Positions 45,735 to 64,000 of a stretch of 64,000 nt of DNA are shown here, piece by piece (position 1 is the first letter of the stretch; every line of letters starts with the position of its first letter). The DNA is from Moritella marina ATCC 15381 (GTDB lineage Bacteria; Pseudomonadota; Gammaproteobacteria; Enterobacterales; Moritellaceae): positions 496,001 to 560,000 of the forward strand of contig NZ_CP044399.1 of NCBI RefSeq assembly GCF_008931805.1, given 5' to 3'. A model generated the notes under the pieces. It was given only the letters and a program-made list of their open reading frames with translations. It had not been told where the DNA came from and made no database searches. Made by a program: the position numbers and the translations under genes.

Positions 45735-47174
45735 CTAATTACATGATGAACTTAATTTACTCCTAGCGCATTTTGCTACTTTTAACGCATCTTTAAATTT
45801 TGTCTCATAAGGGTAAGCGTTGGCTAAACTCTGAAACGTTTCGATAGCTTTAGTGCTTTTCTTTTGATTGTGATAAGACCAGCCTTTTATTTCAGTGAGC
45901 CATACATCTGGACCAAACTTTTTCTCATACAAAGCTGCGTTATCAATGACATATTGATAGTTCTTTTTCTCAAACGCCGCTGAAACATGCTCTGACATTG
46001 TTTGTTTTGATGCCGCAACCTGATGTGTTTGATAGGTTAACTTACTTGCCAGTTGCTGCGAATATTGCTTAAACCCAGCTTTATTTAATGCTAATGAATA
46101 ACCATATTTAGCTTGTTGATAATCATCTGTATCTTCAGAAAGCGCTTTAAGGGCATGCTCAAAACTGCGTTTAGCTGTTAAAGGACGTTGTAGTTTATAC
46201 CACTGCCAACCTGCTAATATATGTTGTTGTGGGGTTAACTCGTTTATTTCACTCAGTAGCATCAAGCAATTTGTAGGCTGTGATTGGCATGTTTTAGTTA
46301 AAGCATCGGCCTGCGGGTTGGCTGCTAATTGGGTTAGAGTGGGATATTTTTTAATCCATTGTTTTTGTAGTTGGTCAAACTCTTGATGCCGCTCTAGCCC
46401 AGATAGACTCAATAATTTACCTTCAATTAGTTTTTGGCTATTTTTTCCTGCCCACTGACTGGCTTGATTAAACCAAGATAATGATGCGGTATAATTCTTT
46501 TCGTTTAGATACTGCCAAGCTAGTAACTCTGCGCCTTTGGAGTCCTTTTTCAATGTGACAGTCTTGGCAACGGTGTTTTTGTTATTCGGGTTATTTGATA
46601 GCGTTGCTAGCTGTACTTGGTAGCTTAGTTTCGCGTAGCTCTGCGCGTCATAGCCAGTGCTTTTTTTGTATTCAGTGAGTATGTTTGGCCATGCTGAATT
46701 TGAGGTCCAAGCCATCACTTTTTGTGTTGTACTTAGTGCATGAACGGGACAGTTTTGTTGAATATAGCGATATTCTTGTTGTGCTTTAGGACCGTAACCT
46801 GTGGCAATTTCGTTTTGTAAACTTAGCCATAACCATTGAATTCTTTGGCAACTACGCCATTGGGGGTTACTGCTAAGCAGTGTTTTTGCAGCTGGTGTGT
46901 TTTTTGTCTTTAGCGCTTTGGTTAGTGCAGAGAGATTAATTTGGTAGTTAATTTCATTGTTTAATTTGTCTGATAATGGGTGGCCCTTACCTGCTGTTCG
47001 AGCAGCATCAGCCCCTGCGTTATCGAGGATCCCCCATATTTTAGACTCATCAAAATTGGTGGTATTGTGCGATGTTACTTCGACTGTAATATGGTTGTTT
47101 AATAGTTCAATATTAGCGTCTTCAGCAGCTTGGCTTGGAAGCGTGATGAGTAATACGAGATATAGAAATTTCAT
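45735..47174 (-). CDS. Periplasmic TPR protein of the cellulose operon, BcsC/BcsK-like without a barrel
   Basis: The 479-residue protein has a signal peptide (1-16, cleavage near SQAAED) and is helical throughout, with TPR-like repeats (SKGAELLAWQYLNEKNYTAS; WYKLQRPLTAKRSFEHALKA; WLTEIKGWSYHNQKKSTKAI). It occupies the place of bcsC, last in the operon, and its ATG overlaps the bcsZ stop (ATGA). BcsC normally has over 1100 residues and ends in an outer-membrane barrel; here there is no barrel and no further gene. It may act like the TPR part of BcsC, or like BcsK of barrel-less bcs operons, with an outer-membrane partner encoded elsewhere. Confidence 0.75.
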   Translation of the reverse strand: MKFLYLVLLITLPSQAAEDANIELLNNHITVEVTSHNTTNFDESKIWGILDNAGADAARTAGKGHPLSDKLNNEINYQINLSALTKALKTKNTPAAKTLLSSNPQWRSCQRIQWLWLSLQNEIATGYGPKAQQEYRYIQQNCPVHALSTTQKVMAWTSNSAWPNILTEYKKSTGYDAQSYAKLSYQVQLATLSNNPNNKNTVAKTVTLKKDSKGAELLAWQYLNEKNYTASLSWFNQASQWAGKNSQKLIEGKLLSLSGLERHQEFDQLQKQWIKKYPTLTQLAANPQADALTKTCQSQPTNCLMLLSEINELTPQQHILAGWQWYKLQRPLTAKRSFEHALKALSEDTDDYQQAKYGYSLALNKAGFKQYSQQLASKLTYQTHQVAASKQTMSEHVSAAFEKKNYQYVIDNAALYEKKFGPDVWLTEIKGWSYHNQKKSTKAIETFQSLANAYPYETKFKDALKVAKCARSKLSSSCN

Positions 47175-48196
47175 TTGCAGAACCTCTCATGGAAAGCAAT
47201 ATGGGTAAATAAAGTTAAACTTGCTGAGTAATAGTCGTCTTGTAATTTCGGTAAGGGCAGTGTGTTACGATTTTTAATCTCTGATTGATTCATTTTCACT
47301 AGCGTTGCAATCGCATAAGCAGAGGTCGGTGGCGCATGATCTGCCATGCTATTATTGTTTATGTCTACCCAAGCGGTATTATTCTGTTGTAACCATTGCT
47401 GGTAATAACCATTGATTGGATGCTGGTACCCTGCCCAGATGAGGTATAGTGGAATTCGGTAGCTAGAGTAGCTAAATCGCGATGGAAATTGTTTTGCCGG
47501 AAGCCAGTCTGTACCATTAAATTCCAACCAGTCTGATGGTAATTGATATTGACCAAATTGATTCTTGCTGAGGATATCGCGACCGCTTTTACTTAATGCA
47601 GCCCATATCTTGCCTTGTTGAACAAAATCGTCCAATGCGGGATATACCCAATAAGCAGGGTTTATGACGGTTGATTTGTTATGCTGAAAACCTATTTTGG
47701 CTGGTAAAAGCGCATATTCATTATCGAGTTTAATAATGTGGTTGCTTGCTAATTCATCAATTATCTTTTGTGCTATTTGTAGATAGTTATTACCTGGCCA
47801 GCTTCGGTCTGCTTTTAATAATGCCCAAGCGATGAGAATATCCCCATCACTGGCATTATTTCGATCGGGAATGTGTGGTTGATTTGCTTGCCACTTCCAA
47901 TAAAACAATGCGTTATCAGTTCGTTGTAGATTACTTTCAGTCCAGTTCCATATCTTTTTAAAAGACTGATGGTCCCCAAAAAAATCAGCTAACAACAACC
48001 CATAACCTTGGCCTTCACTGTGACTTATATTGGCATTGCCATTATCCACAACACGACCATCTGGCGTAATGAACTGCTGTTTGAACATGTCCCATGAGCT
48101 TGAGTATTGCAATATATTACAGCCCTGTACTGTTATATTGGCACTGGCTTGAGCAGTGAAAATTAGACTGATTAAGAGTAGCTTGAAGCATCTCAT
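47171..48196 (-). CDS. bcsZ: Periplasmic endoglucanase BcsZ (GH8)
   Basis: About 341 residues with a signal peptide (MRCFKLLLISLIFTAQASA). GH8 motifs: VVDNGNANISHSEGQGYGLL with the acid Glu, and NNASDGDILIAWALLKAD with the catalytic Asp. BcsZ trims nascent cellulose and is needed for normal fibre export. I start at ATG 48196, which overlaps the bcsB stop as ATGA and gives a clean signal peptide; a longer start at 48250 would add a non-signal extension. Its own stop overlaps the next gene in the same ATGA way. Confidence 0.93.
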   Translation of the reverse strand: MRCFKLLLISLIFTAQASANITVQGCNILQYSSSWDMFKQQFITPDGRVVDNGNANISHSEGQGYGLLLADFFGDHQSFKKIWNWTESNLQRTDNALFYWKWQANQPHIPDRNNASDGDILIAWALLKADRSWPGNNYLQIAQKIIDELASNHIIKLDNEYALLPAKIGFQHNKSTVINPAYWVYPALDDFVQQGKIWAALSKSGRDILSKNQFGQYQLPSDWLEFNGTDWLPAKQFPSRFSYSSYRIPLYLIWAGYQHPINGYYQQWLQQNNTAWVDINNNSMADHAPPTSAYAIATLVKMNQSEIKNRNTLPLPKLQDDYYSASLTLFTHIAFHERFCK

Positions 48197-50286
48197 TTTC
48201 GTGCTCCTAATCGCTGTTGAAAAAGCAAACCTAGGGGTAATATTAGGCACAATATTAATAGCGGCATAAAGTATGGGTGGCTGATTAACCCTGCGCGGAG
48301 AAGCTGTAATTCATCACGGAAGCTGGATGGTTCAGGCATTATTAGTGCACTATTTACAGCGTTTTTATTGATTGATTCAGATGCCAGAAAATCTGCGATT
48401 TTATTGGTCATTTGCGTATTTCCATCCGCTTGAAAATATACTTTTAGTTCGCCTGTATCATGTTCTCGTACTGTTGAGGCGAATATCTTTGGCGTGCCCC
48501 TATCAATAGTTTGAGGTGACTTATAAAGTACTCGAGCATTGGCGTTATTGTCTTGGTTTGTTTCATGATGAGGTTGTTGCATCATATTGAGTAGATATGT
48601 ACGTAATCTATCAACTATATTACGCTCGACTTGAGTATTAGTTGTTGGCGTTATTGTCGGTTGGTTAGTCAGATTGAATATCAGGTTTACAGGTCTTGTT
48701 TGTTTACTGTTTGTGGTTAATAAAAGCGCGGGCATAGATTGGCGAGCTTGATGGGTGATAGCGCTAATTAGCTGCCAAATTTCGGTAAACCCTGATGTTG
48801 TCGGATAATTTAAACTTAATTGAGCATTACTGCCATCATCGTTCGTGATGATAAGTAATTCATTGGCATTGACTTGGTGTGAATTGCCTAATTGGTAGCG
48901 AACCCAAGCGCCGAGCTTAAGTGTCGATGTCGGGGATAAAGATAAGATATACGGACTGTACTCTAATTGCTGAGTTAGGTTAGCGGTATTATTCAGCCCT
49001 GTTACGGCGATGTTTATATGATTCATACCCGCTTTTAGTGTCGCCATCGGAAAGGTGAGGCGGTAGTGCTGGGTTGTTCGCCAGTAACTTGCACGAAGTG
49101 GCATACTATTAATGCGTTCTCCATTAACACGTAACACCATTTCAGCTTCACCAGGTGTCACTTTAGGGTGTGTTAACTGCAAGTTTAATTGCGCTATTTC
49201 GCCTTGATTGACGATAAAATTAGCCGGCATAATAAGCGGTACGACTAATGGCTCTGGACCAAATTCTTGTTGTGAGGTTAATGAATTGAGATGATATTGA
49301 TGTTCGTTTACCACCTTATTACTGATCTTAGTCGGTAGATTAGTCACTAAAAAATGGGCTTGTTTGGGTAACAAATTATTTGCCGTGGCAAAGTATTGGG
49401 CTGCAACCTTAACGTCACTTTCATTGATGCCCGAAATCACCAACACGTTATTGTTGCTTTGATATGGCGAAGTCGCAATAAATGGCCCAGTTATGGCGTT
49501 GATTAATTTATTTGGTAACCCGGTATGGTTTTTTAACTGTGCTTTGGTGCCATAGATAAGCTGTGTCTTACTTTTTAACTGATTGTTTTTAATGTGTTTT
49601 AATTTGTTGTAGCTCGATTGATAGTTAAATTTATATTTATCTGAGCCACTGCGCAGTGTCCAGCCTTGTACTAATAAACTGGCAATGGACAATGAAGTGT
49701 CACTATTTGTAGTGAATAAGCTATCAAGATTAATCGCCTTTGCATTGGCTTGGCCACTTTGAATTAAATGCATAAAGTTGGCTAATGTTGGCTGGGTATT
49801 ATTTTTTCTATAGCTTAATTCATAAAACGATTGCTTGGCGATGATCTCGGTGGATATTTCTTTATTTTGTCGGGCGTCATCAATTGAGCTAGGTAATTGA
49901 TGATGCACAGCGATGGTCAATTGGTTGTTCGTTTGTGTAAGTAGTTCTGGCGTAAGATTCACGGTAATTTGTTGCGTTCCCTTTTTAGGTGGTAACTTAA
50001 TATTGGCTAGTGGACTGTTATTTAAGTGTAACCAAACAGTCGAGTTTGTGACGTGTTCTGAATGACTTAGGGTAAGGTAAAGGCGCATTTTTTCGACGTT
50101 TTGATTCTCTAAAATAATCAAAGGAAGCGTTAATTTGTCCCATTGACCTTGCAGTTTAGCCGTTCTTTCAGCGGGCATAATATAGGTTAATGGCACTTTT
50201 ACTGTTGTTGATTTAGTGGTTTTTGTTTCAGCAAAGACAGTGAAAGATAAAATAAAACCAAGCAGAATGAGTATGAAATTTTTCAT
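48193..50286 (-). CDS. bcsB: Cellulose synthase regulatory subunit BcsB
   Basis: The 697-residue protein has a signal peptide (1-19), a long periplasmic part with alternating carbohydrate-binding and flavodoxin-like domains (LYLTLSHSEHVTNSTVWLHL; GEAEMVLRVNGERINSMPLR; MNHINIAVTGLNN) and a single C-terminal membrane helix (about 672-690, PLLILCLILPLGLLF) that packs on BcsA. It guides the glucan through the periplasm. The start overlaps the bcsA stop (ATGA). Length is within the BcsB range (about 700-800). Confidence 0.92.
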   Translation of the reverse strand: MKNFILILLGFILSFTVFAETKTTKSTTVKVPLTYIMPAERTAKLQGQWDKLTLPLIILENQNVEKMRLYLTLSHSEHVTNSTVWLHLNNSPLANIKLPPKKGTQQITVNLTPELLTQTNNQLTIAVHHQLPSSIDDARQNKEISTEIIAKQSFYELSYRKNNTQPTLANFMHLIQSGQANAKAINLDSLFTTNSDTSLSIASLLVQGWTLRSGSDKYKFNYQSSYNKLKHIKNNQLKSKTQLIYGTKAQLKNHTGLPNKLINAITGPFIATSPYQSNNNVLVISGINESDVKVAAQYFATANNLLPKQAHFLVTNLPTKISNKVVNEHQYHLNSLTSQQEFGPEPLVVPLIMPANFIVNQGEIAQLNLQLTHPKVTPGEAEMVLRVNGERINSMPLRASYWRTTQHYRLTFPMATLKAGMNHINIAVTGLNNTANLTQQLEYSPYILSLSPTSTLKLGAWVRYQLGNSHQVNANELLIITNDDGSNAQLSLNYPTTSGFTEIWQLISAITHQARQSMPALLLTTNSKQTRPVNLIFNLTNQPTITPTTNTQVERNIVDRLRTYLLNMMQQPHHETNQDNNANARVLYKSPQTIDRGTPKIFASTVREHDTGELKVYFQADGNTQMTNKIADFLASESINKNAVNSALIMPEPSSFRDELQLLRAGLISHPYFMPLLILCLILPLGLLFQQRLGARK

Positions 50287-52514
50287 TGGTAAGTATCCTG
50301 TTTAGTTGAGTTAACCACGGTGGTAGAGGTTTTTATCTTAGTTGTTAGCACGTTGTTTAAAGCCTGTGATGCACTACTAAATGCCAGTTGGAAGAAATGC
50401 GCGATAGACATTAAAATGCTTTTGCTGCGTTGCTCTTCAAGCTGACGTTGGCGCTGCCAAGGTTCGCTACGAGAATAAATTATTTGTGTAAAAGAATTTA
50501 GATTTTCTTCATTGCTATCAACTAATTGACAGTTAATCGTTTGCATTTCACCTTGTTCATGACCACTTCTGAATTGGATGTTGGTGGCGTGCGCTTGGTA
50601 CTTAGGTTTTCCATTGGCGGCAGCATGATTAATATCAATATAATAAATGAGATTAAGCTGCTGATCTTTAATAGGTAAATTTTGTGTTGAATTTAGCTGC
50701 AGCTGGAGGCCATGCACCGAGGCGTTACAAATTTTGGCAGTCAGTTCATGGCCATCAAATTTGACTAGTGCTGGAATATGGCAAGGTACACGCGGCTCAG
50801 AGCGGCGTTGCACTTTTTCGAGCATTGCACCTAAGCTCACCATACAAAGTAATAAATTGAGAGTGTTAAATATCACCACCACGGTTAGTTGACCTTGCTC
50901 GACAGGGTAGTTGTAAATACGGTGTATACCCCATATTTCAGCAACGATGATGATTGCGAGCAGGACAAGAAGAACTGGCGTTAAAGGTGAAAAGTGGGTC
51001 TGATTGGTTGTTTCACCTTTAGGTGTAACCGTAAAGCTGGGCTTTTTAGGGTTGATAATAACTGATAGGGTGGGTAAAAATAGATATAGCGATAACACTG
51101 TTTCGTAGAATTCTGAAAACAGAGTATTACGTGTTTTACCAAATAAGTGCTGATTTATGAGTATGCTAATAGCTAAATGAGGCACGGCAAAGATGAGGAA
51201 GTCGTTACCATTACCGACAAAAATTTGTAAATTAAATAACAGATAACATAAAGGCGCAATTAAGTAAGAAACACGAAATAAAGGAAATAGCCAGAATAAG
51301 GTTGAATTCAAATAACATAGTTTTTGAGGCCAGCTTAAGCCCTTTTTAAAGATAGGATTATTAAGCAGAAAAATTTGCACCATACCTTGACCCCAACGTG
51401 AACGTTGAGTGACATACGCACCGAAAGTATCAGGTGATAAACCAGCGATCATGGCTTTGTTTAGGTAAGCGCTATCCCAACCGCGAGCGTGAATATCCAG
51501 CGCGGTATCAGCATCTTCAGTAATTGTACGAGTCGATATACCACCAACTTCTAACAAAGCTTGTCTTCTAATGACGGCTGCCGAGCCACAAAAAAAACTG
51601 GCGTTCCAAAAGTCCATGCCAGAAAGGATACGGTTATAAAACATTTCATTCTCTGGTGCGACTTGTTCATCGATACCTAAATTTCGTTCTACGGGACCAG
51701 GGGTGGAGAAAAAGTGTGGTGTTTGCACAAAACCTAAGTTGGCTTGTTGCTGAAACATGCCGATGGTATTGAGCAAGAAGTCATTTGAAGGGACATGATC
51801 AGCATCTAAAATCAAAATGAGTTCGCTACTCGTATACTCAAGGGCATGATTGATATTACCTGCTTTAGCATGTTCATTTTTTGGACGAGTTAGGTAGTTC
51901 GCGCCTAATTTTAAACAGAGATCTTGTATACTGCTGGCTCGTTGTTGCGCAGCTCTTGCAGCCTTTCCATCTTCCTGTTGAATTTTTTGTGCAGTGCCGC
52001 CATCATCTAGCACCCATATTTTTACCTGACCTGGGTATTCTAGTTGCATTGCCGCTGAAATCGTTGGTGCGAGCACCCGAATAGATTCATCATAAGTTGG
52101 AATAAAGACATCTACAGTTGGCAGTGCAAGGGCTGTATTAATTGGTGTTATTTGTCTATTTTTTTGACGGACATTAACAAACATACCGAGTAGGTAAATA
52201 GTGATTCCGTAACATTCGGTGACCAGTAATAGCATCGCAAAGGGTAAATCAAAACTGCTTTCCCACGGCAGCGTATCTGAATATCGCCAGCCGATATAAC
52301 GCAGGGGAATAAAAGCACCGGTGATCAGTACGAGTAGATGAAGCAGTTTCTTGTCACTCGATTTACTGCCTAAAAGTACTAATAGAATCGCCCCTACGGA
52401 TAGCCAAAGGTGGGTTTCGCTAGTCACTTCAATCGCTGACAGTAGGATTAGTACACATAAGATTGAGCCGATAACGATCCACTTTAGTACGTTATATAGT
52501 TTGGATTTATTCAT
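50283..52514 (-). CDS. bcsA: Cellulose synthase catalytic subunit BcsA
   Basis: The 743-residue inner-membrane GT2 enzyme polymerises UDP-glucose. Catalytic motifs: VLDDGG (168-173), DAD (237-239), TED (332-334) and QRSRW (370-374). Membrane helices flank the GT domain, and a C-terminal PilZ domain (about 570-690) binds cyclic di-GMP: RRSEPR supplies the RxxxR (571-575), while the second motif is NASVHG (597-602), with Asn in place of the usual Asp of DxSxxG. The ATG follows directly on the TAA of the upstream lipoprotein gene. Translationally coupled first enzyme of the operon. Confidence 0.96.
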   Translation of the reverse strand: MNKSKLYNVLKWIVIGSILCVLILLSAIEVTSETHLWLSVGAILLVLLGSKSSDKKLLHLLVLITGAFIPLRYIGWRYSDTLPWESSFDLPFAMLLLVTECYGITIYLLGMFVNVRQKNRQITPINTALALPTVDVFIPTYDESIRVLAPTISAAMQLEYPGQVKIWVLDDGGTAQKIQQEDGKAARAAQQRASSIQDLCLKLGANYLTRPKNEHAKAGNINHALEYTSSELILILDADHVPSNDFLLNTIGMFQQQANLGFVQTPHFFSTPGPVERNLGIDEQVAPENEMFYNRILSGMDFWNASFFCGSAAVIRRQALLEVGGISTRTITEDADTALDIHARGWDSAYLNKAMIAGLSPDTFGAYVTQRSRWGQGMVQIFLLNNPIFKKGLSWPQKLCYLNSTLFWLFPLFRVSYLIAPLCYLLFNLQIFVGNGNDFLIFAVPHLAISILINQHLFGKTRNTLFSEFYETVLSLYLFLPTLSVIINPKKPSFTVTPKGETTNQTHFSPLTPVLLVLLAIIIVAEIWGIHRIYNYPVEQGQLTVVVIFNTLNLLLCMVSLGAMLEKVQRRSEPRVPCHIPALVKFDGHELTAKICNASVHGLQLQLNSTQNLPIKDQQLNLIYYIDINHAAANGKPKYQAHATNIQFRSGHEQGEMQTINCQLVDSNEENLNSFTQIIYSRSEPWQRQRQLEEQRSKSILMSIAHFFQLAFSSASQALNNVLTTKIKTSTTVVNSTKQDTYQ

Positions 52515-53309: not shown

Positions 53310-53353
53310 AGGTATTCGGTGATCTTCAAGTTATGTCATGTTATGTGCTCGAG

Positions 53354-53492
53354 TAATAAAGATGTATACCAAATTAGCTCTGAACGCAGGTATTACAGCT
53401 CAGAAAACAAAGCTATAAATAATAAAGTAGTATACTAAGCTTAGGTTACTAGGAATACGCTAAATTTATTGAGTAATAAAGTTGTATACTAA
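53354..53492. repeat. Three 19-bp repeats (TAATAAAGnnGTATACnAA)
   Basis: Copies at 53354-53372, 53420-53438 and 53474-53492 share TAATAAAG, two variable bases, GTATAC, one variable base and AA. Start-to-start distances are 66 and 54 bp. The core GTATAC is itself palindromic. They lie between the terminator and the 3' end of the XRE gene, without any gene. They could be protein-binding iterons, operators or recombination sites. Confidence 0.8.
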
Positions 53493-53839: not shown

Positions 53840-54358
53840 ATGTCAAAAAAAGCCTTGAAAGTTACACCGCTAATATATTCAGTTCTAATCAATGATGAAT
53901 TGGATCATTTTACCGTTAGCCAAATGAGAGATGCTTATTTGGCTAAGGTCTGTAGTGGTATAGATCAAAATGAAGCACGTAAAATTGTTTATAGACAGAT
54001 TCTAAGATTGCAAAAGTTAGGTATGTTGTCAAAGCAGACTTCGGATAACGTAAAAGAGCACTGTTACAATAAAACAGAGTTGTTTTATCAAGTTGGGCTA
54101 AGAACCAATAGAGCGAATAGTAAGAATGATGAAAAAGCTAATAATCCGCTCGAAGAGAGGTTAAGGCGATGCGAAGTCGACTTACTGACAAGCATTGCCG
54201 AGTCGGAAGAATACATGCGCTTGTATGAATCATTACCTGAATTAAAAGAACACCTAGAGTGTCAATACACGAAATCTCGTGAGTGTAGTTCTAAATTGCT
54301 TGGTCAAATAAAAGCGATTAAAAGTGTGATGTTACATCAAAGTAAAAATCACTTATGA
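53840..54358 (+). CDS. Unknown defence-island protein, wHTH-like N-terminus and helical C-terminus
   Basis: The 172-residue protein is not recognised. Residues about 5-60 look like a winged-helix or similar helical domain (DHFTVSQMRDAYLAKVCSGI, EARKIVYRQILRLQKLGMLS, ending as a typical wing). From about 95 it is highly charged and helical (EERLRRCEVDLLTSIAESEE, LPELKEHLECQYTKSRECSS), likely a coiled coil. No membrane segment. It is divergent from the XRE gene (113 bases between start codons) and flanked by two inverted repeats with a shared core. It may be a regulatory or accessory part of the adjacent system. Confidence 0.65.
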   Translation: MSKKALKVTPLIYSVLINDELDHFTVSQMRDAYLAKVCSGIDQNEARKIVYRQILRLQKLGMLSKQTSDNVKEHCYNKTELFYQVGLRTNRANSKNDEKANNPLEERLRRCEVDLLTSIAESEEYMRLYESLPELKEHLECQYTKSRECSSKLLGQIKAIKSVMLHQSKNHL

Positions 54359-54660: not shown

Positions 54661-56115
54661 TCATTTAATAGATTGATTAAGTATCGGTATGAAACACTTG
54701 TTTTTGACCGTTTGATCTTCCTTCACACCTTTCTTTTCAAAAAAATCATTATATTTAGGTTGGAGGGTCGTCCAATCCAGAAGTTTGCTAGAAACTTCGG
54801 AAATAAACTTAGGTTCAAAGCTCACATAACCTACAGGAAATGAAATATCACGTTGATCATCTAGTTGTACATGAAACAAACTTGCAACCATTATACCTGG
54901 AATAATCATAAACTCGGCATCTTCTCCACCAAATTTAGCTGGTAAGTCCATGAAGTCAGCAGTTGATAGCTTCCAAAAATTATTCCTTAGAGTAATCGAC
55001 TCTTGATAACTCTCACAAGCCATGCCTAAAACAACTTTTGATGTTTTCTTTCTTTTATCGAAGAGGGTATAAACTTCATCTACCAATTTACTTAAATCAG
55101 TTGTTTTCCCCCACGTTTTAGATTCAGTATTAGTAAGCCAAATCAAACCAGAGTTCTCTGGTTTATCTTCAAATATAGCTTTAAGTCGCCCCGTTATAAT
55201 GTCTCTATTACTCTCGGTATAAAAGTTACCAAGTAGCATAAATGTATCGTCATTTAGTTTTGTTAAGCCATTTTCATAATGATTTACTAAAGCTTTAATA
55301 TTGAATGTTCTAGTGTTGTCATCCCAGTACTGAATTATAAGAGGATCATTTGATGCCTCAAGGTATTCGTTAAAACTATTATGCTGATCCTTCATGGAAT
55401 CAACTTCAATCGTCGAGTCCATAAGTGAGAACATTGCTTTTTCTTCATCCCATTCATCAACAGTATTTGAAACATATTCCATTTTTAAAATGTTGGGTGA
55501 ATCAGTATCCACAAAATATTCAACCTCTAGAGGAAGTGTTGAATCGTATCGGTCTGATACTTGATTTATTTTATAAAGTTCTTTTATTTCTGAAAAAACA
55601 TCTTCTTTCAATACAAGCTCTCTAAACAAATTAAAATTTGAATCAAAAGCACTTTGCGCTTTATTCAATAGATTACGATAGCATTCATCTGGTAAGTTGA
55701 GTGAAATACTAAAATCTTGAGAGCCAGAGCGTTTCACATCAGTAGACAGCATTTGAAAACTGTACAATTCAAATTCAACAGGAGAGACTTCATCAGTTAC
55801 TTCAAAAAAAGTAGGCCTCAGATTCCCATCTTCTTCTGTAAACTTACTCATCGCATAGTAAGTAAGTTTTATTTTCCCACCTTCCCATTCAACTAGGTTC
55901 TCTTCTTGTAAATCATCAACAATCGCCAACATTTCTTTACTCGTTAGACCAAAGTAATCCTGAATAGTCTCCAAACTTGTGGAAGACAATGAATAAATGA
56001 GTCTTATCACAAACTCTTTAACAACTGGTAACTCGCGTTTCTTACTAACGGTGTAGTCCATAAAAAAAGACTTTGTTGGTAAGCCAAAGCAAACCTTACT
56101 TAATTGGATCTTCAT
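54661..56115 (-). CDS. Partner protein of the NERD-kinase-helicase operon
   Basis: The 484-residue protein starts with an atypical strand-rich segment, then a winged-HTH-like domain (about 30-90: SLETIQDYFGLTSKEMLAIV, DDLQEENLVEWEGGKIKL). The middle is acidic. The C-terminal half (about 270-440) contains SGLIWLTNTESKTWGKTTDL, TSKVVLGMACESYQESITLR and FHVQLDDQRDISFPVGYVS, which resemble strands of a phospholipase-D-type fold, but no HxK(x)4D motif is present. In Mokosh type I the second gene encodes a PLD nuclease, so this could be a degenerate or divergent counterpart. Its ATG overlaps the helicase stop (ATGA), showing tight coupling. Function not established. Confidence 0.7.
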   Translation of the reverse strand: MKIQLSKVCFGLPTKSFFMDYTVSKKRELPVVKEFVIRLIYSLSSTSLETIQDYFGLTSKEMLAIVDDLQEENLVEWEGGKIKLTYYAMSKFTEEDGNLRPTFFEVTDEVSPVEFELYSFQMLSTDVKRSGSQDFSISLNLPDECYRNLLNKAQSAFDSNFNLFRELVLKEDVFSEIKELYKINQVSDRYDSTLPLEVEYFVDTDSPNILKMEYVSNTVDEWDEEKAMFSLMDSTIEVDSMKDQHNSFNEYLEASNDPLIIQYWDDNTRTFNIKALVNHYENGLTKLNDDTFMLLGNFYTESNRDIITGRLKAIFEDKPENSGLIWLTNTESKTWGKTTDLSKLVDEVYTLFDKRKKTSKVVLGMACESYQESITLRNNFWKLSTADFMDLPAKFGGEDAEFMIIPGIMVASLFHVQLDDQRDISFPVGYVSFEPKFISEVSSKLLDWTTLQPKYNDFFEKKGVKEDQTVKNKCFIPILNQSIK

Positions 56116-59100
56116 TTTTTTGCCTCCAGTGATTGAGAATTTACAATCGAGTATTCTTTATCACTGTGCTCAGAAATATACTTGTATACTCGACCAAATG
56201 CTGAGCCTTCATTGTTATTTTGCCACATATCCGAATTACCAATTATGAACAGTGCTTCCTTAGCACGAGAAAGTGCTACGTTTGCTCGATTCTCTGAAGA
56301 AACATAGCCTTGACTGCCCCTAGAGTTACTTCTGACTAGAGAAACAATAACAATATCGTTCTCTTTACCTTGGTAACTATCGATCGTGTCTACCTTTATG
56401 ATCCCTTTTTCTAGTAATGTTCGAGCCCATGCAACGCCATTGATTTTACGAATTAGATACCTAACTTGTTCTCCATACATACAAATAATGCCGATTTTCG
56501 GATCATCATCTTCCACAAGGAGAGCTTCCGCGTTTTTATGTGCTATGAGATTACTTAGAAGCTCTAATATAATTTCAGCTTCGTATCTATTAACATAACT
56601 TTTCTGATTTGCATTTTTAGCGGTTGGTTTAGATTCAAAAGAGTTTCTCTTAGCTTTACTAGTATCAATCCAAGTCACTGGTGTACAAGTATCTTCAAAC
56701 AATTCTAGATAAGCTTTTTTCGTTACCCCTCTACCGGTCTCTAAACCACCTTCTTCAGAGTAAAAACATTCTGATACTAGGTTTCCTACAGCCGGTATCA
56801 TTCGGTATTGAATTTTTAAAAATCGCCCTACAGTTTTCCCATAGCTGGAAACGAATGCTCTTTCAAAATCACTACGCTTAAACTCATCAGTACTAACTGT
56901 TGGTAAAATTCTTTTGGCTGCATTTATATGCTCTTCATCAAACAGGGGGGGGAGTTGCTTATGGTCACCAACTAAAAGAACCTTACGTCCTACCTGCATT
57001 GCTATTGCAAGTTCACTTGCTGGTGATCTAGCAGCTTCATCAATAACAACTAAATCGTAAATGTTCTCTTGGATTCCATAATGATTACGTCCTATACCAA
57101 CACAAGTGCCACATACTAAAGTCCGAGTCTTTGATAGAAAGTTTTGGAATTGAGACTGACTTGAAGCCATAACACTAAGCCACTCATTTGATATAGAAAT
57201 GATGTTCTTAAACTTTGACACCAAGTCACCCGAAAAAATTTCATAGTGTCTAGCTAACGCCGAATAAATAAATTCTCGATAACAATTGAGCTCAATACTG
57301 TCAAGGTTCAGTTCCATTCCTACTTTACGAGAAAAGAATTCAGGTAACTTTTCATCGAACACTTCAATTTGCTTCGTCAATGCGTTTGACGTAATACTGT
57401 CTTTATCCTTCATACGAGAAATAATACGATCTAGTTGCTTACCAAATGACCTCTCAAATTCAGTAGCAATTTTCGTAAACTCTTCATTAATACCTAATTC
57501 TCGAGCAACCCTCGTAATACGCTCCTCATATTCAGCTTTAAACCTATCTCTATAATGCTCTTGAAGCGCCTTCTCTCCCACATCATCAAGTTGCTCTGAA
57601 AGTACATGCTGATCACCAAGGCGAACAATATCTATTTCAGTATCATTTCTCCCAAATAGTGACCTCACTTTCTCTGTTGCATTATTGACAGCTTCATGAG
57701 ATTGACTGACTAAGAGTACCCTTCTAGCCCCATTAGAAATACAGTAATGGATGAAAGAGCCAATAAATGCCGTTTTACCCGTACCTGGGGGACCTTGAAG
57801 CAAGCTTACTGGACCATATTTATACAAGCCTTTGAAGGCTTCTCTCTGCTGTTCATTTAGCTTAAAGATCACGTTTTCATCACAACCTAACTCGGTATAC
57901 GAGTCTAACTCAGCATCAGTTGGCTCTGCTTGCTCAGTTGGTTTAACGGCTACTCCTGGGGAAAAGTAATCTGCAATATTACTGATAACACTTCTGTTAT
58001 TTACCAGATTTTCCGTCGCTAACTTCCTTTTATTTAATGATGATGCCGTCAGTGCACCTTCAAGAACCAAGGTATCACCTAGCTCAATTCTCGCTTTACC
58101 CCTGATGTTTATTGCCATCGAATTTGGACCAATATCAACGACAATTCCTATTCTTCGAAGCTCTCCATGCCTTTCTGCATATACAAAAACACGTTCTGTA
58201 TTAAGGTTAAAGTCTAAAGATGCGCCTTCACTAGTATATTGGAATGTATACTTATCACCTTGAATTCGCGGGTCTGTAGATATTTCAACTCTTGGGTTAC
58301 TTTCGTGCTCGGTTTCAACAAGTGCTTTCCAAACGTCTCTTGCGTCCGTTACTTTGGAGGTTTTTATATTGGTTAACGCAAGTGTCCCTTGGTTAGAGTT
58401 ACTTCCCTCCGAGCTTTCAACGCCTTTGCAAAGTTCTTGGTATACCGGACTTTCAAGTATTTCATCAAAAAACGCTTCAGAGGCTTCACTCTCAGAACTG
58501 CAAAAATGAATCTCTCCACTTAGCTCTAGGATTGATCTTTTCTTGTTTTTGATGAAATCGTTATGTCTAATCTCATCAAAATTGGCTGAAACAATAAATT
58601 TCTTTTCTGGATGAATCAGTATGCCCAAGCGATGTTTCACGCCTGTAATTCGAACAGAAACTAAATCGCCATCTTTGCCTTTGTTTATTTCTAAATCTAG
58701 GTAATATTTACCATCATCAGACAAAAGCTTGCCCTGTCTGATTTTAAGTTTTTTATGAAAAATCTTAAAAATATTTACCAACTTGAGAGGAGGAGGACTA
58801 ACGATGCCCTCTAACTCATCATGCAGTTTTATAATTTCTTGGCTTGATATTTCAGGAAGTTCAAGTAGTTGATTTACATATTTGCCTAAATGAGTTAGCT
58901 GTTTTGCAACTGACAATTCACTAATTATCTTCACAGTAGCGTAACGGTCTATGTTTGCCTTAGAAATATTTTCATGGTTATCAGGAGAATAAGTAGGCGT
59001 ATATTTACTTTCATCCAGCTCGATAATGTCTATAAATACTAAACCATTGTCGTTGATAATTATATTTTCTGGGTGGATATCACCATGATGGATGCTTGCC

Positions 59101-60956
59101 GAATGTAACTCAATTAGTGACGATAGCAACTGCTTGATCTTTAACGTAGGATCATCAATTGCTTGTGACTCAACAAACTGTTTCCAGGTACTGCCTTTTA
59201 TCCACTCAAATTGGAAAAAGGCGCAGGTCATTTGTGGGTTTAAACCATAATCAATAATTTTAGGAAGGCACTTTATATCTGCATTTTTTCTAATGTCCAA
59301 CCTATTAAAAAATGACAGTAGCTGACTATTAACTCCACCATCAGTTGATACATCACTCACCCCAAACCAAGCTTTCAGACCAAATGAATCATCGATAGCT
59401 TTTAAAAAATTGAATGTTCCATCAATCTTTACTGGACTGGTGCCTCCAAAATCGACATAGATATTCTTTGAAGAATGGTAGTTTGCTAATAGGCCTAGTT
59501 TATCTTCACCATCAGACTCACCTACATTCAATAGTTTATTAAGTTCAGTAAGAGCCTCTCGAAGGTCCTTAAAACGAGCCGCAGCTTCAAGCTCCAACCC
59601 TCTTTCAAACCATTTTTCGAGTCGTTGGCATATCGAACTATCTTTAATTGGTTCCCAGAGGTAAATGCCATCTTCTTTTATAGGCGGCTTACCGAATGCA
59701 ATATAGTGACATGCAGCAGTAGCTAGATATACATCACGAGTAAAATGTGTACCCTCAGAATCATCGTACAACTCTTCAGGTGTTGCAATCTGGTTGTGCT
59801 GAAGAATTTTACGAATATTAGACACTGTTTTATTTTGTGGGTCAGGATAGGTTGCTGTTAGGAAATTAGACAACACGACCTTACTTGGGAGCGATACCCA
59901 GATACTGTGGTTGCCAAGGTCACGATGCGCCACATCAATATCATGAAGACTAGCCAAACGACTTACCAGAGCCTGAATTAGGTTGAGTCTGTTTTCTTCA
60001 GTAAGTTTTGTACTGTTCTTTCTAATAAATGTATCGAGACGGTCTTTTTTATTCGGCCATTCATACAATTCAACAAAATCAGAAGATAGTTCGCTAGGTA
60101 AATACTCTAGTCGAAGATATGTATCTTTAAGCTCTTCATCTTGATTTGCGATATAACCAAGTACATCACTTTCTCTGTGTGCAATTAGAGATCTTTGCTC
60201 CGGTGTTCTAGCATGTTCAACGATACAAGGAGAAGTGAAGTTCCACCTGCGCATCAGCGCTTTGTAGTTATGATTATCAGAGCGTTGGCTATGGTACTCA
60301 GAATACAGTCCATCTCTATGTTGAAATAGAGGCTGTCCTTGTAATACATAATTATTAGCAGAGTAATTTTTTGCTTTGAAGTCTGCACTATTATTGGAAA
60401 AAATTTTGTCCCATTGTTTTAAGTTTTTATTAGGAGCATCCTCTTTTCGCTTTATCATCCATGAGATATCTTTGAAATATTTCTTATAGACTTTGTCCTC
60501 GCCGATTTTGGCAAACTCGTCTAGCGTGAATACATAGTCTTGCTCATCAGGGTGAAGATCATCTTTGGTTGCTGTTCCGCACAAGACAACACAATGGTCG
60601 ACCCAAGGAGCAAACCGGTTATTTAAACGTTCTTTCAATTTAGTTGCTAATATTTGAGCAGATCTTCTTGCTTGACGCACACCGTTACTTCGATGTTCTT
60701 CTCGTCCATCTGGAAATTGTACGATCCACTTTCCTTCGTTAGAGAAAATTTTTCCAGACCACTTTTTTAGCTCAACGTTTATAATTCGATCGTGTGTAAT
60801 CAAAATTAGATCGCCTTCAAACTCTTTACTTTGTCTACCTCGCATTTCCAACGAAGAATAACCTTTCCAGTTATTTGGTAGAGCAGCTTCAAGCCTTTCG
60901 TTCGCTTCTCTTTCGTAGCCATTAATCCCTAAAGGGTCTAAGCACTTTATTTCCAT
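56112..60956 (-). CDS. Giant NERD - pseudokinase - kinase - SF1 helicase defence protein (Mokosh-like)
   Basis: The 1614-residue protein has, in order: a NERD nuclease-like domain (about 10-165; Asp 49 in EGDLILI, ELK at 62-64, QARRSAQ); a kinase-like lobe (about 230-470) with AHRDLGNHS, but S at the catalytic-loop Asn position and SNF instead of DFG, so probably inactive; a second kinase (about 500-680) with Lys 519, HGDIHPEN (624-631) and Asp 643, apparently intact; a beta-rich linker (about 740-980); and a COG1112/Upf1-type helicase (about 1030-1580) with GPPGTGKT (1055-1062), VIDEAARS, GDHKQLPP, QYRMIP, DSYQGKENDI and NVALSRAK. Helicase-kinase fusion plus a second gene is the Mokosh type I plan; the NERD domain and double kinase are additions. 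ATG 60956 follows AGGAC. Confidence 0.88.
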   Translation of the reverse strand: MEIKCLDPLGINGYEREANERLEAALPNNWKGYSSLEMRGRQSKEFEGDLILITHDRIINVELKKWSGKIFSNEGKWIVQFPDGREEHRSNGVRQARRSAQILATKLKERLNNRFAPWVDHCVVLCGTATKDDLHPDEQDYVFTLDEFAKIGEDKVYKKYFKDISWMIKRKEDAPNKNLKQWDKIFSNNSADFKAKNYSANNYVLQGQPLFQHRDGLYSEYHSQRSDNHNYKALMRRWNFTSPCIVEHARTPEQRSLIAHRESDVLGYIANQDEELKDTYLRLEYLPSELSSDFVELYEWPNKKDRLDTFIRKNSTKLTEENRLNLIQALVSRLASLHDIDVAHRDLGNHSIWVSLPSKVVLSNFLTATYPDPQNKTVSNIRKILQHNQIATPEELYDDSEGTHFTRDVYLATAACHYIAFGKPPIKEDGIYLWEPIKDSSICQRLEKWFERGLELEAAARFKDLREALTELNKLLNVGESDGEDKLGLLANYHSSKNIYVDFGGTSPVKIDGTFNFLKAIDDSFGLKAWFGVSDVSTDGGVNSQLLSFFNRLDIRKNADIKCLPKIIDYGLNPQMTCAFFQFEWIKGSTWKQFVESQAIDDPTLKIKQLLSSLIELHSASIHHGDIHPENIIINDNGLVFIDIIELDESKYTPTYSPDNHENISKANIDRYATVKIISELSVAKQLTHLGKYVNQLLELPEISSQEIIKLHDELEGIVSPPPLKLVNIFKIFHKKLKIRQGKLLSDDGKYYLDLEINKGKDGDLVSVRITGVKHRLGILIHPEKKFIVSANFDEIRHNDFIKNKKRSILELSGEIHFCSSESEASEAFFDEILESPVYQELCKGVESSEGSNSNQGTLALTNIKTSKVTDARDVWKALVETEHESNPRVEISTDPRIQGDKYTFQYTSEGASLDFNLNTERVFVYAERHGELRRIGIVVDIGPNSMAINIRGKARIELGDTLVLEGALTASSLNKRKLATENLVNNRSVISNIADYFSPGVAVKPTEQAEPTDAELDSYTELGCDENVIFKLNEQQREAFKGLYKYGPVSLLQGPPGTGKTAFIGSFIHYCISNGARRVLLVSQSHEAVNNATEKVRSLFGRNDTEIDIVRLGDQHVLSEQLDDVGEKALQEHYRDRFKAEYEERITRVARELGINEEFTKIATEFERSFGKQLDRIISRMKDKDSITSNALTKQIEVFDEKLPEFFSRKVGMELNLDSIELNCYREFIYSALARHYEIFSGDLVSKFKNIISISNEWLSVMASSQSQFQNFLSKTRTLVCGTCVGIGRNHYGIQENIYDLVVIDEAARSPASELAIAMQVGRKVLLVGDHKQLPPLFDEEHINAAKRILPTVSTDEFKRSDFERAFVSSYGKTVGRFLKIQYRMIPAVGNLVSECFYSEEGGLETGRGVTKKAYLELFEDTCTPVTWIDTSKAKRNSFESKPTAKNANQKSYVNRYEAEIILELLSNLIAHKNAEALLVEDDDPKIGIICMYGEQVRYLIRKINGVAWARTLLEKGIIKVDTIDSYQGKENDIVIVSLVRSNSRGSQGYVSSENRANVALSRAKEALFIIGNSDMWQNNNEGSAFGRVYKYISEHSDKEYSIVNSQSLEAKK

Positions 60957-61072: not shown

Positions 61073-64000
61073 TTACGCTCTCATATTATCTTCAACCACC
61101 GCATTCGCATTCACTTCACGAATAACACTAAACAGTTCAACAACTGTTCCTTCATCAAAGAAGCCGTAGGCGCTTTCGCCGTGGTTATCGGTAAATGGTG
61201 CATCGAAAAGTTGTGACATTTCCAGAATGCCGTTATCAACCAAATAATCGATGACTTGGTCAACAAAGTTGATTTGTTCGGCGTTGTAAGATTCATTATC
61301 AAGGAAACTGCTAAATGCTTCTTTTGCTGCATTCATATCTAAACCGACTAGCTCACGGATAAATGCACCTAAAGGCTTCTCTTGTAATATTTTATCGCGG
61401 TAAGCGTCGACATTACTCATGCCGCTTGCGTCTAGCAGTAAGCCTTCTAGGACATCTAAGTCGGTTTGTGTGATGGATTTATTGCGTTTTAGTTTTTGTA
61501 TCGTTAACTGGTCTTGATGGTCTTTGATGTACAGCTCGATTTTCTTACGATATTGGGCTAAATCAACAGCTGGGTTGCTGTATACTGCTGTGACATCGTG
61601 AACACCTTGAACTTCGTCTTCAAAGTTGGTGTACACCATCTCTTTTTTGTCTTTATCCAACGCAAACATTAGGTTGCGTAATTTACGGCGTAGGTCTTCC
61701 AGCATAACTAAATGAATATCCTGCCAAAATGCTTGTGTCTGAATATCTTGAATCAGTTGCAGTTGCGCTTGTACGGCTGGAATGGTTGATTTAGCTTCTA
61801 ACTGCTCAGCAAATTCAATCACTCGAATACGACTCGCTTCCGGAAGCATGCCTTTTTCTAACAACGACAACTGCATTGTTAACAAGAGGCTATCAAAGCG
61901 GTGGGATAAATGATTAAGCTGTTCATCAGAGTTAAATGCTTCTGCTTCGGTTGGCAGAGCTGATATTTGGTTTTCTAAGTCTGTAAATTTAGCGTCATTA
62001 ATATTGTCCCAATGCTTTCTCTCTAGGAACGGTTCTACCGCTTGGCGCTTTGGTCTTACGATAAAGTTGTCGAGATTCATGCCACTAACAAGGTGATGTA
62101 ACATGTCTAGCTGATAACGGTTTAGTTCTGAATATCGCTCAAAATCTTCTGGATGTTGCTCTCGAAACGCTTCATTGTTTAGCTTACTGTTGATTAATGT
62201 GCTCAATAGGACGCGCTTTTCAAATACTTGCTGAGTAACAGGTTTTGCCACTCCCACAGGTAAGCCTTCAGGGTTGGCATCGAAATACTCAAAGTTCTGG
62301 CAGTAATCAAATACTTTAAAGGTTTTCTTGTCGTCATTAGGCCCAAACAGATCTTTACACAAACGTGTACCACGGCCAATCATTTGGGTGAACTTCACCT
62401 TTGAACGAATCACTTTGAAGAACACTAAGTTAACTACTTCGGGTACATCAATACCGGTATCTAACATATCGACAGAAATGGCGATGCGGCAAGTTGGATT
62501 TTTTGGATCGAACTCGTCAACTTTGTTTTCGTCACCACCGAATTCATCGATTAGACTTTGTGCATAGGTTTCTTTGAAGGTGATGACGCGTGCAAGTTTA
62601 CCTGCCCATTTGGGATAGTTCTTGTTGAACATTTTCTCAAGGAAAACCGCATGATCATTATTGGCTGCAAAGATAATGGTTTTACCGATGACATCGCCAC
62701 CTTCAACATGGATACCACCTCGGTCATCTTTGCTCATTAACTGAGCAAACATCTTCTCTGCGGTATCTTCATTAAACAGAAATTTATTGACTTCAGATGG
62801 CAATACTTCATCACGGTCTTCTAGTTCAGCTTTGTTTTCCCACTCATCTTGTTCTTCGTTAGACAACTCTTTGTACTTTACACCTTCACGCAAGAACTTA
62901 GTTGCGACTGAAATTTTGGTTGGTGGTACTAGATATTCTTCAGCGTATGCACTGCTGTCTTCGTAAGCGTAAGTTGGCATGCCTTTTTGTAGATCAAAAA
63001 TACCATAAGTATCTTTTTCAACTTCGTCTTTTGGTGTAGCTGTTAGCCCTACTAAGAAACCATCAAAGTATTCGAAAATCTGACGATACTTGGAATAAAT
63101 AGATCTATGTGCTTCATCGACGATGATTAAGTCAAAATGACCCACACCAAACGGGCGTTCATCAGTACCGCGATCCAGTAGATTCTTCATAGTAGGGTAA
63201 GTCGAGAAATACAAGCGACTGTCGATGTTGCTCTTGCTTTGACCTGAATTTAAAATAGAGCAACTCACGCGGGGTAACAGCTTAACGAAGTTCTTCTTGG
63301 CTTGGGTGAGTAGCGCATTACGATCGGCAAGGAACAGGACGTTCTTAACCCAATCATTTTTCACCAACAAATCAACAAGGCTGATCACGGTTCGGGTTTT
63401 ACCTGTGCCCGTCGCCATGACAAACAATCCCTTGCGTTCATGTTCTAACTCAAAGTCTTGTAATAACTTAGTGATGGCTGATTTTTGATAGTGGCGGTTG
63501 GTGATCTCGTTATTAATAACAAGATTACTGTTAGGCATGGCGTTGTCGAAAAAGGGCTTACGCTCGATTCGACGTTTAACCATCAGCTCAAGCTCGGCTT
63601 GGGTGTAAAAGCCCTGAACTTGACGCGGTGGATAAAAATGATCATCCCATAAGTGCGTATCATAGCCATTGGTGTAGAAGATAACAGGGCGCACACCGCA
63701 TTGTTTTTCTAAACAATCAGCATAAAGTTTTGCTTGTTGTTGGCCATCTTCCGCGCGGCGATGGGTGCGTTTTGCTTCCACCACAGCCAGTGCTGTGCCG
63801 TCATCGCCCCACAATACGTAATCGACAAAGCCGTTACCTTTTGGATTAGCTTTAGAAATCGGCATACCTGATACAGGGTATTCTCGGTCACGTTTATGCG
63901 CTAATTTCCAACCAGCTTCATGCAGTAGTACATCAATGAGATAAGTACGGGTTTCTGCTTCGTTGTAATCATGCGTGTCTGACGTTTTCTCTGCACTTTG
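61073..64000 (-). CDS. hsdR: Type I restriction enzyme R subunit HsdR (N-terminus beyond the window)
   Basis: The frame stays open to the right edge, giving about 975 residues. Near the N-terminal side is the nuclease core (FVDYVLWGDDGTALAVVEAK, the PD-ExK pattern), followed by a DEAD-type translocase: MATGTGKTRTVISLVD, LIIVDEAHRSIYSKYRQIFE, VGLTATPKDEVEKDTYG, and MLDTGIDVPEVVNLVFFK with MIGRGTRLCKDLFG. The C-terminal about 350 residues fit the EcoEI-type R C-terminal domain that docks on the methyltransferase. HsdS and HsdM should lie further right. It reads toward the Mokosh-like operon with 116 bases between, forming a defence island. Confidence 0.95.
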   Translation of the reverse strand, partial: QSAEKTSDTHDYNEAETRTYLIDVLLHEAGWKLAHKRDREYPVSGMPISKANPKGNGFVDYVLWGDDGTALAVVEAKRTHRRAEDGQQQAKLYADCLEKQCGVRPVIFYTNGYDTHLWDDHFYPPRQVQGFYTQAELELMVKRRIERKPFFDNAMPNSNLVINNEITNRHYQKSAITKLLQDFELEHERKGLFVMATGTGKTRTVISLVDLLVKNDWVKNVLFLADRNALLTQAKKNFVKLLPRVSCSILNSGQSKSNIDSRLYFSTYPTMKNLLDRGTDERPFGVGHFDLIIVDEAHRSIYSKYRQIFEYFDGFLVGLTATPKDEVEKDTYGIFDLQKGMPTYAYEDSSAYAEEYLVPPTKISVATKFLREGVKYKELSNEEQDEWENKAELEDRDEVLPSEVNKFLFNEDTAEKMFAQLMSKDDRGGIHVEGGDVIGKTIIFAANNDHAVFLEKMFNKNYPKWAGKLARVITFKETYAQSLIDEFGGDENKVDEFDPKNPTCRIAISVDMLDTGIDVPEVVNLVFFKVIRSKVKFTQMIGRGTRLCKDLFGPNDDKKTFKVFDYCQNFEYFDANPEGLPVGVAKPVTQQVFEKRVLLSTLINSKLNNEAFREQHPEDFERYSELNRYQLDMLHHLVSGMNLDNFIVRPKRQAVEPFLERKHWDNINDAKFTDLENQISALPTEAEAFNSDEQLNHLSHRFDSLLLTMQLSLLEKGMLPEASRIRVIEFAEQLEAKSTIPAVQAQLQLIQDIQTQAFWQDIHLVMLEDLRRKLRNLMFALDKDKKEMVYTNFEDEVQGVHDVTAVYSNPAVDLAQYRKKIELYIKDHQDQLTIQKLKRNKSITQTDLDVLEGLLLDASGMSNVDAYRDKILQEKPLGAFIRELVGLDMNAAKEAFSSFLDNESYNAEQINFVDQVIDYLVDNGILEMSQLFDAPFTDNHGESAYGFFDEGTVVELFSVIREVNANAVVEDNMRA

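Follow-up and report, generated by a model that had tools for sequence, protein, structure and literature searches.

A Mokosh-type gene pair with a NERD nuclease domain on its helicase chain, carried by a Tn7-like transposon in Moritella marina

The type I Mokosh system is described, in a passage of PMC11672841, as a helicase and a phospholipase D (PLD) nuclease coded by separate genes, together with a Ser/Thr kinase, and a table in part of PMC10952713 assigns the NERD domain (PF08378) to Mokosh type I and to Nhi-like, and the PLD-like domain to Mokosh (types I and II) as well as Azaca. Published accounts of how Mokosh works differ, since an excerpt of a review (PMC12926258) gives the mechanism as unknown while a passage of PMC11291487 attributes to Mokosh the degradation of viral transcripts. 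A NERD domain followed by an inactive and then an active kinase has been described in PglW of type 2 BREX, and an identical NERD-pseudokinase-kinase arrangement in a subset of DndF (both from a portion of PMC12839542). Here, we analysed a window of 64,000 nucleotides from Moritella marina ATCC 15381 (GCF_008931805.1, NZ_CP044399.1, 496,001–560,000, forward strand), to which positions refer unless the contig is named, and describe a minus-strand gene pair coding for MkoA, of 1614 residues (mkoA, 56112..60956), and its 484-residue partner MkoB (mkoB, 54661..56115).

Both proteins are matched end to end by protein models of PADLOC-DB: MkoA by PDLC03921 with 1653.4 bits (residues 1-1613 to positions 1-1606 of 1607) and MkoB by PDLC03923 with 349.7 bits (residues 2-457 to positions 7-445 of 454). 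The lengths are similar (1614 residues and 1607 positions, 484 and 454) and nothing that was compared sets the window pair apart from these models, the assignment to Mokosh being made by match to single protein models and not by PADLOC's system rule. The initial annotation had proposed a relative of Mokosh with a novel partner, and a comparison with PADLOC as a check; the full-length matches uphold the Mokosh connection and rule out both a novel system and a novel partner, as existing models cover the two proteins and NERD already stands under type I in the table of PMC10952713 cited above. At the level of PADLOC models and of the tabulated NERD domain a canonical Mokosh of this kind had been described before, and to judge from these matches the pair is already known in kind and modelled in a defence database. 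What is added here is the location of the nuclease in two branches, a possible dead PLD, a branch with a phosphatase and the exact Tn7-like element. An anti-phage role of the window pair is predicted from the family match.

Set beside the type I wording in the passage of PMC11672841, the COG1112-type superfamily 1 (SF1) helicase is present, as seen from AAA_11, AAA_12 and the likeness to UPF1, and so is the Ser/Thr kinase domain, with Pfam Pkinase exceeding its cut-off and the residues of the second kinase in place. The PLD nuclease with its HKD motif was not found in the partner (PLD family in 0/15 MkoB at E 0.1, HKD pattern and PLD profile in 0/23, the window protein being included in each), which is why we file the pair with the MkoA/MkoB family that carries NERD and for which PADLOC has models, and not with PLD-type Mokosh. 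An HKD motif in the window MkoB is thereby ruled out, as the initial annotation had held.

The pair is confirmed to consist of a NERD domain, a pseudokinase, an intact kinase and a UPF1-like helicase in one chain, plus the partner, whose gene overlaps mkoA by 4 bases (ATGA), as first noticed. The four-domain reading of the initial annotation was borne out by Pfam matches to NERD, Pkinase and AAA_11/AAA_12, by the structure model and by residue counts. All four domains lie on the minus strand. NERD occupies residues 14-126 (60579..60917; PF08378, E 1.5e-17) with the PD-(D/E)xK residues D49, E62 and K64; residues 197-481 form a whole kinase fold, the pseudokinase (59514..60368); a second kinase covers approximately residues 495-705, with limits taken from the model (58842..59474; Pfam Pkinase, 39.2 bits, and structure); and, after a linker, the SF1 helicase covers residues 1032-1575 (56232..57863; AAA_11/AAA_12) with Walker A K1061, DEAA and QYRM. 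The nearest solved chains to the helicase are NAM7/UPF1, with SEN1 and DNA2 also among the best; the VIA list for MkoA is occupied by the first kinase. As a separate observation, the M. marina genome codes for a second NERD protein, in a 277-residue frame (contig 889536-889874, 117 bits).

Conservation was counted in alignments of 21 distinct full-length MkoA, the window protein included; L022, L033 (only a 540-residue helicase part), L035 and L055 (contig end) were left out. The NERD residues D49 and K64 are identical in all 21, and position 62 is E in 15 and D in 6. In the first kinase, the catalytic-loop Asn position holds S in 18/21 and R, T and C in one each, and the DFG Asp position holds S in 19 and T in 2; the invariant R236, whose R-x-W setting is the counterpart of K-x-W in the second kinase, is what we infer to be the position of the lost beta-3 lysine. 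The second kinase has H624, G625, D626, N631 and D643 in every protein and K528, within a V-K-x-W motif where the first kinase has Arg, in 20/21; the helicase residues K1061, D1306, E1307, R1385 and R1564 are the same throughout. From this conservation, NERD, the second kinase and the helicase look catalytically alive and the first kinase looks like a retained pseudokinase, whose loss of the Asn and the DFG Asp in 21/21 fits a retained regulatory domain.

The N-terminal part of MkoA has counterparts in other systems. PglW shares the order of NERD, inactive kinase and active kinase and its profile matches MkoA 14-400; after the kinases PglW carries winged helices and an inactive STAND ATPase (described in the portion of PMC12839542), whereas MkoA has an SF1 helicase at residues 1032-1575, and these C-terminal parts of PglW were not found in MkoA by PglW models that cover 14-400 only. 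The subset of DndF from DndFGH, likened here by the description in that same portion and not by sequence, has the module in the same order, followed by a P-loop nucleotide kinase. MAD6, of a methylation-associated defence system, aligns with MkoA over residues 12-482 (NF047741 positions 12-467 of 612, 151.8 bits), a match under the cut-off of 460 that spans NERD and the first kinase only. The searched text of PMC12839542 makes no mention of Mokosh or MkoA, and a description of the module in MkoA was not found in the literature searched; the original Mokosh paper lay outside this search, so prior publication is possible.

PADLOC also holds a second pair of models, PDLC03920 (MkoA, 1112 positions) and PDLC03922 (MkoB, 610), for PLD-type Mokosh I, which shares with the window pair a kinase-helicase chain and a partner that has the winged helix of MkoB at its N terminus; beyond this, the window MkoA carries NERD and the pseudokinase, and the window MkoB is without HKD. 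We compared the place of the nuclease in three sets. With mkoB, 13 plasmid loci and one E. coli chromosome were read; the best 80 of 346 matches of another search include 8 complete NERD-type pairs, and 8 of the 26 records of a further search were read. The NERD set has 21 MkoA and 23 MkoB, the latter including those of L033 and L035. The PLD set comprises 8 loci (L058, L129 and six plasmid loci), and four loci defined by a PP2C phosphatase gene form the third set, so that their 4/4 is no frequency. Some loci stand outside the sets, namely L132 and several with a kinase-helicase gene, L074, L075, L076 and L085 among them; their partners are not in the counts.

Our NERD profile matched MkoA in 21/21 of the NERD set, 0/8 of the PLD set and 0/4 of the PP2C set, and our PLD profile matched MkoB in 0/23, 8/8 and 1/4, respectively, the last a weak match (L147, 30.8 bits). 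The HKD pattern is present in 7/8 MkoB of the PLD set (not L129), in 0/23 of the NERD set and in 1/4 of the PP2C set. By Pfam, the MkoA of L058 and L129 have kinase and helicase without NERD, the kinase of L129 being under the cut-off, and both of their partners have PLDc_2. At L095 (L095:5023-9176), a locus that fits into no set and does not enter the set-wise profile counts, a helicase without NERD or kinase match adjoins a MkoB-like protein without PLD match. As far as these profiles and patterns reach, NERD and PLD were never seen together, and since L095 shows neither, the rule is one of no co-occurrence and not of one nuclease per locus.

MkoB begins with a MarR-like winged helix (residues 25-104; 55804..56043, minus strand) that is common to PLD-type MkoB. 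The N-terminal profile matches 23/23 MkoB of the NERD set, 6/8 of the PLD set and 2/4 of the PP2C set, and hhalign aligns residues 11-209 of the NERD-type and PLD-type families (probability 96.4, E 1.2e-9); the C-terminal halves could not be aligned by hhalign under three settings (E 0.15, 0.37 and 0.23). The C-terminal domain (approximately residues 286-450; 54766..55260, minus strand) has a predicted PLD-like fold without the HKD motif, for which Foldseek returned NucT and Nuc at E 0.007-0.016 and TM-score 0.46-0.50 by target. MkoB combines a winged helix with a domain of PLD-like predicted fold that has no HKD, perhaps a dead PLD. The initial annotation had left it between a partner that lost HKD chemistry and one that never had it: the absence of HKD stands, and because the predicted fold resembles PLD nucleases, loss is weakly favoured, with the sequence profiles silent on that side. 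A search of the MkoB sequence against solved structures gave no convincing match, the best of the 5 chains that came up at E up to 10 standing at 0.11, and PLD-type MkoB, run as a control, likewise gave nothing at E 0.01 even though Pfam calls PLD in two of its members; the silence of this search is therefore not evidence. The VIA list for MkoB is occupied by winged helices, the C-terminal domain lying outside its rows.

Among the PP2C loci, L146 and L147 have MkoB together with a helicase gene, which in L147 bears the annotation kinase, and a gene whose annotation is PP2C phosphatase; L130 and L131 carry PP2C, kinase, helicase and MkoB as separate genes with one further large open reading frame (ORF). 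A kinase and a phosphatase around the same core fit a phosphorylation switch.

Starting from what was observed directly, namely the domains, the conserved residues, the operon, the family match, the difference in nuclease and the transposon boundaries, we favour with moderate confidence a reading of the pair as a NERD-bearing Mokosh in which helicase and winged helix sense, a pseudokinase gates the kinase and NERD is the effector; each functional step is something we infer. The UPF1-like helicase of MkoA, aided by winged-helix MkoB, would engage abnormal phage nucleic acid, either RNA or DNA. The pseudokinase, which the initial annotation took as a possible sensor of infection, may restrain the adjoining active kinase, by analogy with a JAK-like tandem, and engagement would free the kinase to phosphorylate MkoA or MkoB, which in turn would license NERD to cut nucleic acid. 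In the NERD branch the cutting domain would be on MkoA, and the PLD-like domain of MkoB may be a dead scaffold. This is consistent with the PADLOC models, the catalytic residues kept in NERD, the second kinase and the helicase, the losses in the first kinase in 21/21, the apparent exclusion between the two nucleases, the MkoB N-terminal domain that both branches share, the PP2C gene in four loci, and defence neighbours such as HsdRSM here and BREX in Polaromonas.

Several points weigh against this reading. The HRD Asp of the first kinase, D346, is retained in 21/21 MkoA, so its inactivity is probable only from the other positions. The MkoB model has a mean predicted local distance difference test (pLDDT) score of 71.8, lower within parts of the PLD-like region, all PLD-family chains stand at a Foldseek E of 0.006 or worse against MkoB, and the PLD-like fold is without sequence-profile support (E 0.15-0.37). 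Because the query used to collect each set carried the nuclease of that set, and every profile derives from the set it represents, independent evidence comes only from the other nuclease being absent. Neither nuclease is seen in several related loci (L095 and most of the PP2C set). Of these, D346 and L095, together with the root-mean-square deviation for TrmBL2 and the neighbours with defence genes, were listed as contrary and left our assessment unchanged.

The main rival explanation makes the kinase the effector, which would phosphorylate host or phage proteins and halt growth or replication, with NERD and helicase only sensing or clearing nucleic acid. A kinase is found in all three sets by Pfam or annotation (L146 unscanned) where the nuclease is variable or not evident, and the kinase region of MkoA matches the PD-T4-6 anti-phage kinase models of PADLOC. 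However, all 21 MkoA keep the NERD residues D49 and K64, NERD and PLD are mutually exclusive in the two large sets, and the related locus L095 has no kinase match at all, and we regard a kinase effector as unlikely.

On the side of origin, we put forward only tentatively, as an idea that falls a little short of being probable, that Mokosh with NERD forms a branch of its own, where a ready-made NERD-pseudokinase-(kinase) cassette, also employed by PglW and DndF, was captured and the cutting activity thereby passed from partner to helicase chain, the partner keeping a dead PLD as a kinase-docking or sensing scaffold; a third branch would join the same core to a PP2C phosphatase. If true, a conserved core of helicase and winged helix, usually with a kinase, would have been re-armed by interchangeable effectors. 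The comparison of branches gives a testable rule, in which the helicase and the MkoB winged helix are constant and the nuclease changes place, and if the C-terminal domain of MkoB is a dead PLD, then effector, switch and sensor would be separable by point mutants within one chain.

Related pairs are frequent enough in E. coli for laboratory study, as 309 of 5426 complete genomes carry at least 80% of one. Within its own genus, MkoB was found in 1/11 genomes, that of M. marina itself. The plasmid records matched by tblastn number 54 for MkoB and 359 for MkoA, and 153 of the latter have one place covering at least 80% of MkoA (30 of the 54 and 30 of the 359 being listed). In a class-wide search the NERD-type MkoB model matched 17/369 genomes at E 0.001, with a whole-protein match in the M. 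marina genome only and short N-terminal matches in the other 16; the PLD-type model matched 142/274, and among the matches listed most lie at positions ~250-604, which we take to be ordinary PLD enzymes. Viral contigs hold three helicase relatives of MkoA, none extending to NERD or the kinases, and no MkoB was found in them with the L050 protein as query. Separately, mkoA was seen disrupted on Providencia and Vibrio plasmids (L022, L148, L035), cut short near IS3, as in L022, or split by it, as in L035, and the Providencia remnants share ~80-87% identity with the gene or protein of the window.

The neighbours of the pair could suggest that it is an accessory of an adjoining restriction or BREX system and not a stand-alone defence. 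It adjoins hsdRSM here; in Polaromonas, a BREX-1 cluster holds a NERD-type mkoAB with pglX on one side and pglZ/brxL on the other (L032:2128-8542); a methyltransferase/helicase/GIY-YIG group stands beside it at L028 of E. coli, an MmeI-type enzyme and a methyltransferase are near it at L036, and the N-terminal part of MkoA resembles BREX PglW and MAD6. Yet the neighbours vary by locus, with TrlF at L027, AbiH at L029 and, hypothetical genes apart, no defence system annotated in the stretch shown at L023, L024, L025, L026, L030, L031 and L034, and the only constant in 12 intact annotated loci is the pairing itself (mkoB directly after mkoA in 12/12, with a 4-base overlap in 7/12). An accessory role is in our view quite improbable.

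A Tn7-like transposon carries the pair as cargo, alongside a type I restriction system. The element spans contig positions 549344-571791 (22,448 bp; window 53344 to beyond 64000) and is inserted 25 bp after the glmS stop, with TGT at both termini, a TGTTA target duplication on both flanks and three TnsB-site-like repeats per end; its left end lies at 53344..53489, with the TGT terminus at 53344 and TGTTA before it. Upstream of mkoA come hsdR (61073..64000, minus strand, extending past the window edge), then hsdS and hsdM, outside the window, TnsE, TnsD, TnsC, a 692-residue gene, TnsA and glmS. TnsA, TnsC, TnsD and TnsE were identified by Pfam, and the 692-residue gene at the TnsB place, with no Pfam match, is TnsB by position only. 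Tns genes, TGT ends, a 5-bp duplication and the glmS site are thus all present, as in a Tn7-like transposon. A left-flank query of 741 bp found, beyond the M. marina genome, only ~50 bp in 1/10 other genomes of the genus and no empty site, so the insertion is read from the target duplication.

Defence genes are well known as cargo of Tn7-like elements, according to a passage of PMC8649781. The pair might also be a maintenance factor of transposon or plasmid, or a nucleic-acid repair factor, with no part in immunity. UPF1/NAM7, SEN1 and DNA2, the best solved matches of the helicase, act in RNA turnover or in DNA replication and repair, which together with the residence on a mobile element would suit such a role; the patchy presence (1/11 genomes of the genus, 309/5426 complete E. 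coli with a related pair) and the source of the family models, a defence database, speak against it, and we consider it very improbable.

Besides mkoA, mkoB and hsdR/S/M, the cargo includes a 172-residue ORF on the plus strand between the transposon left end and mkoB (53840..54358), for which neither Pfam nor PADLOC gives a match at E 0.001. To the left of the element, window positions 45735-52514 hold genes resembling part of a cellulose operon, among them a glycosyltransferase with PilZ, a GH8 glycosidase and a TPR protein.

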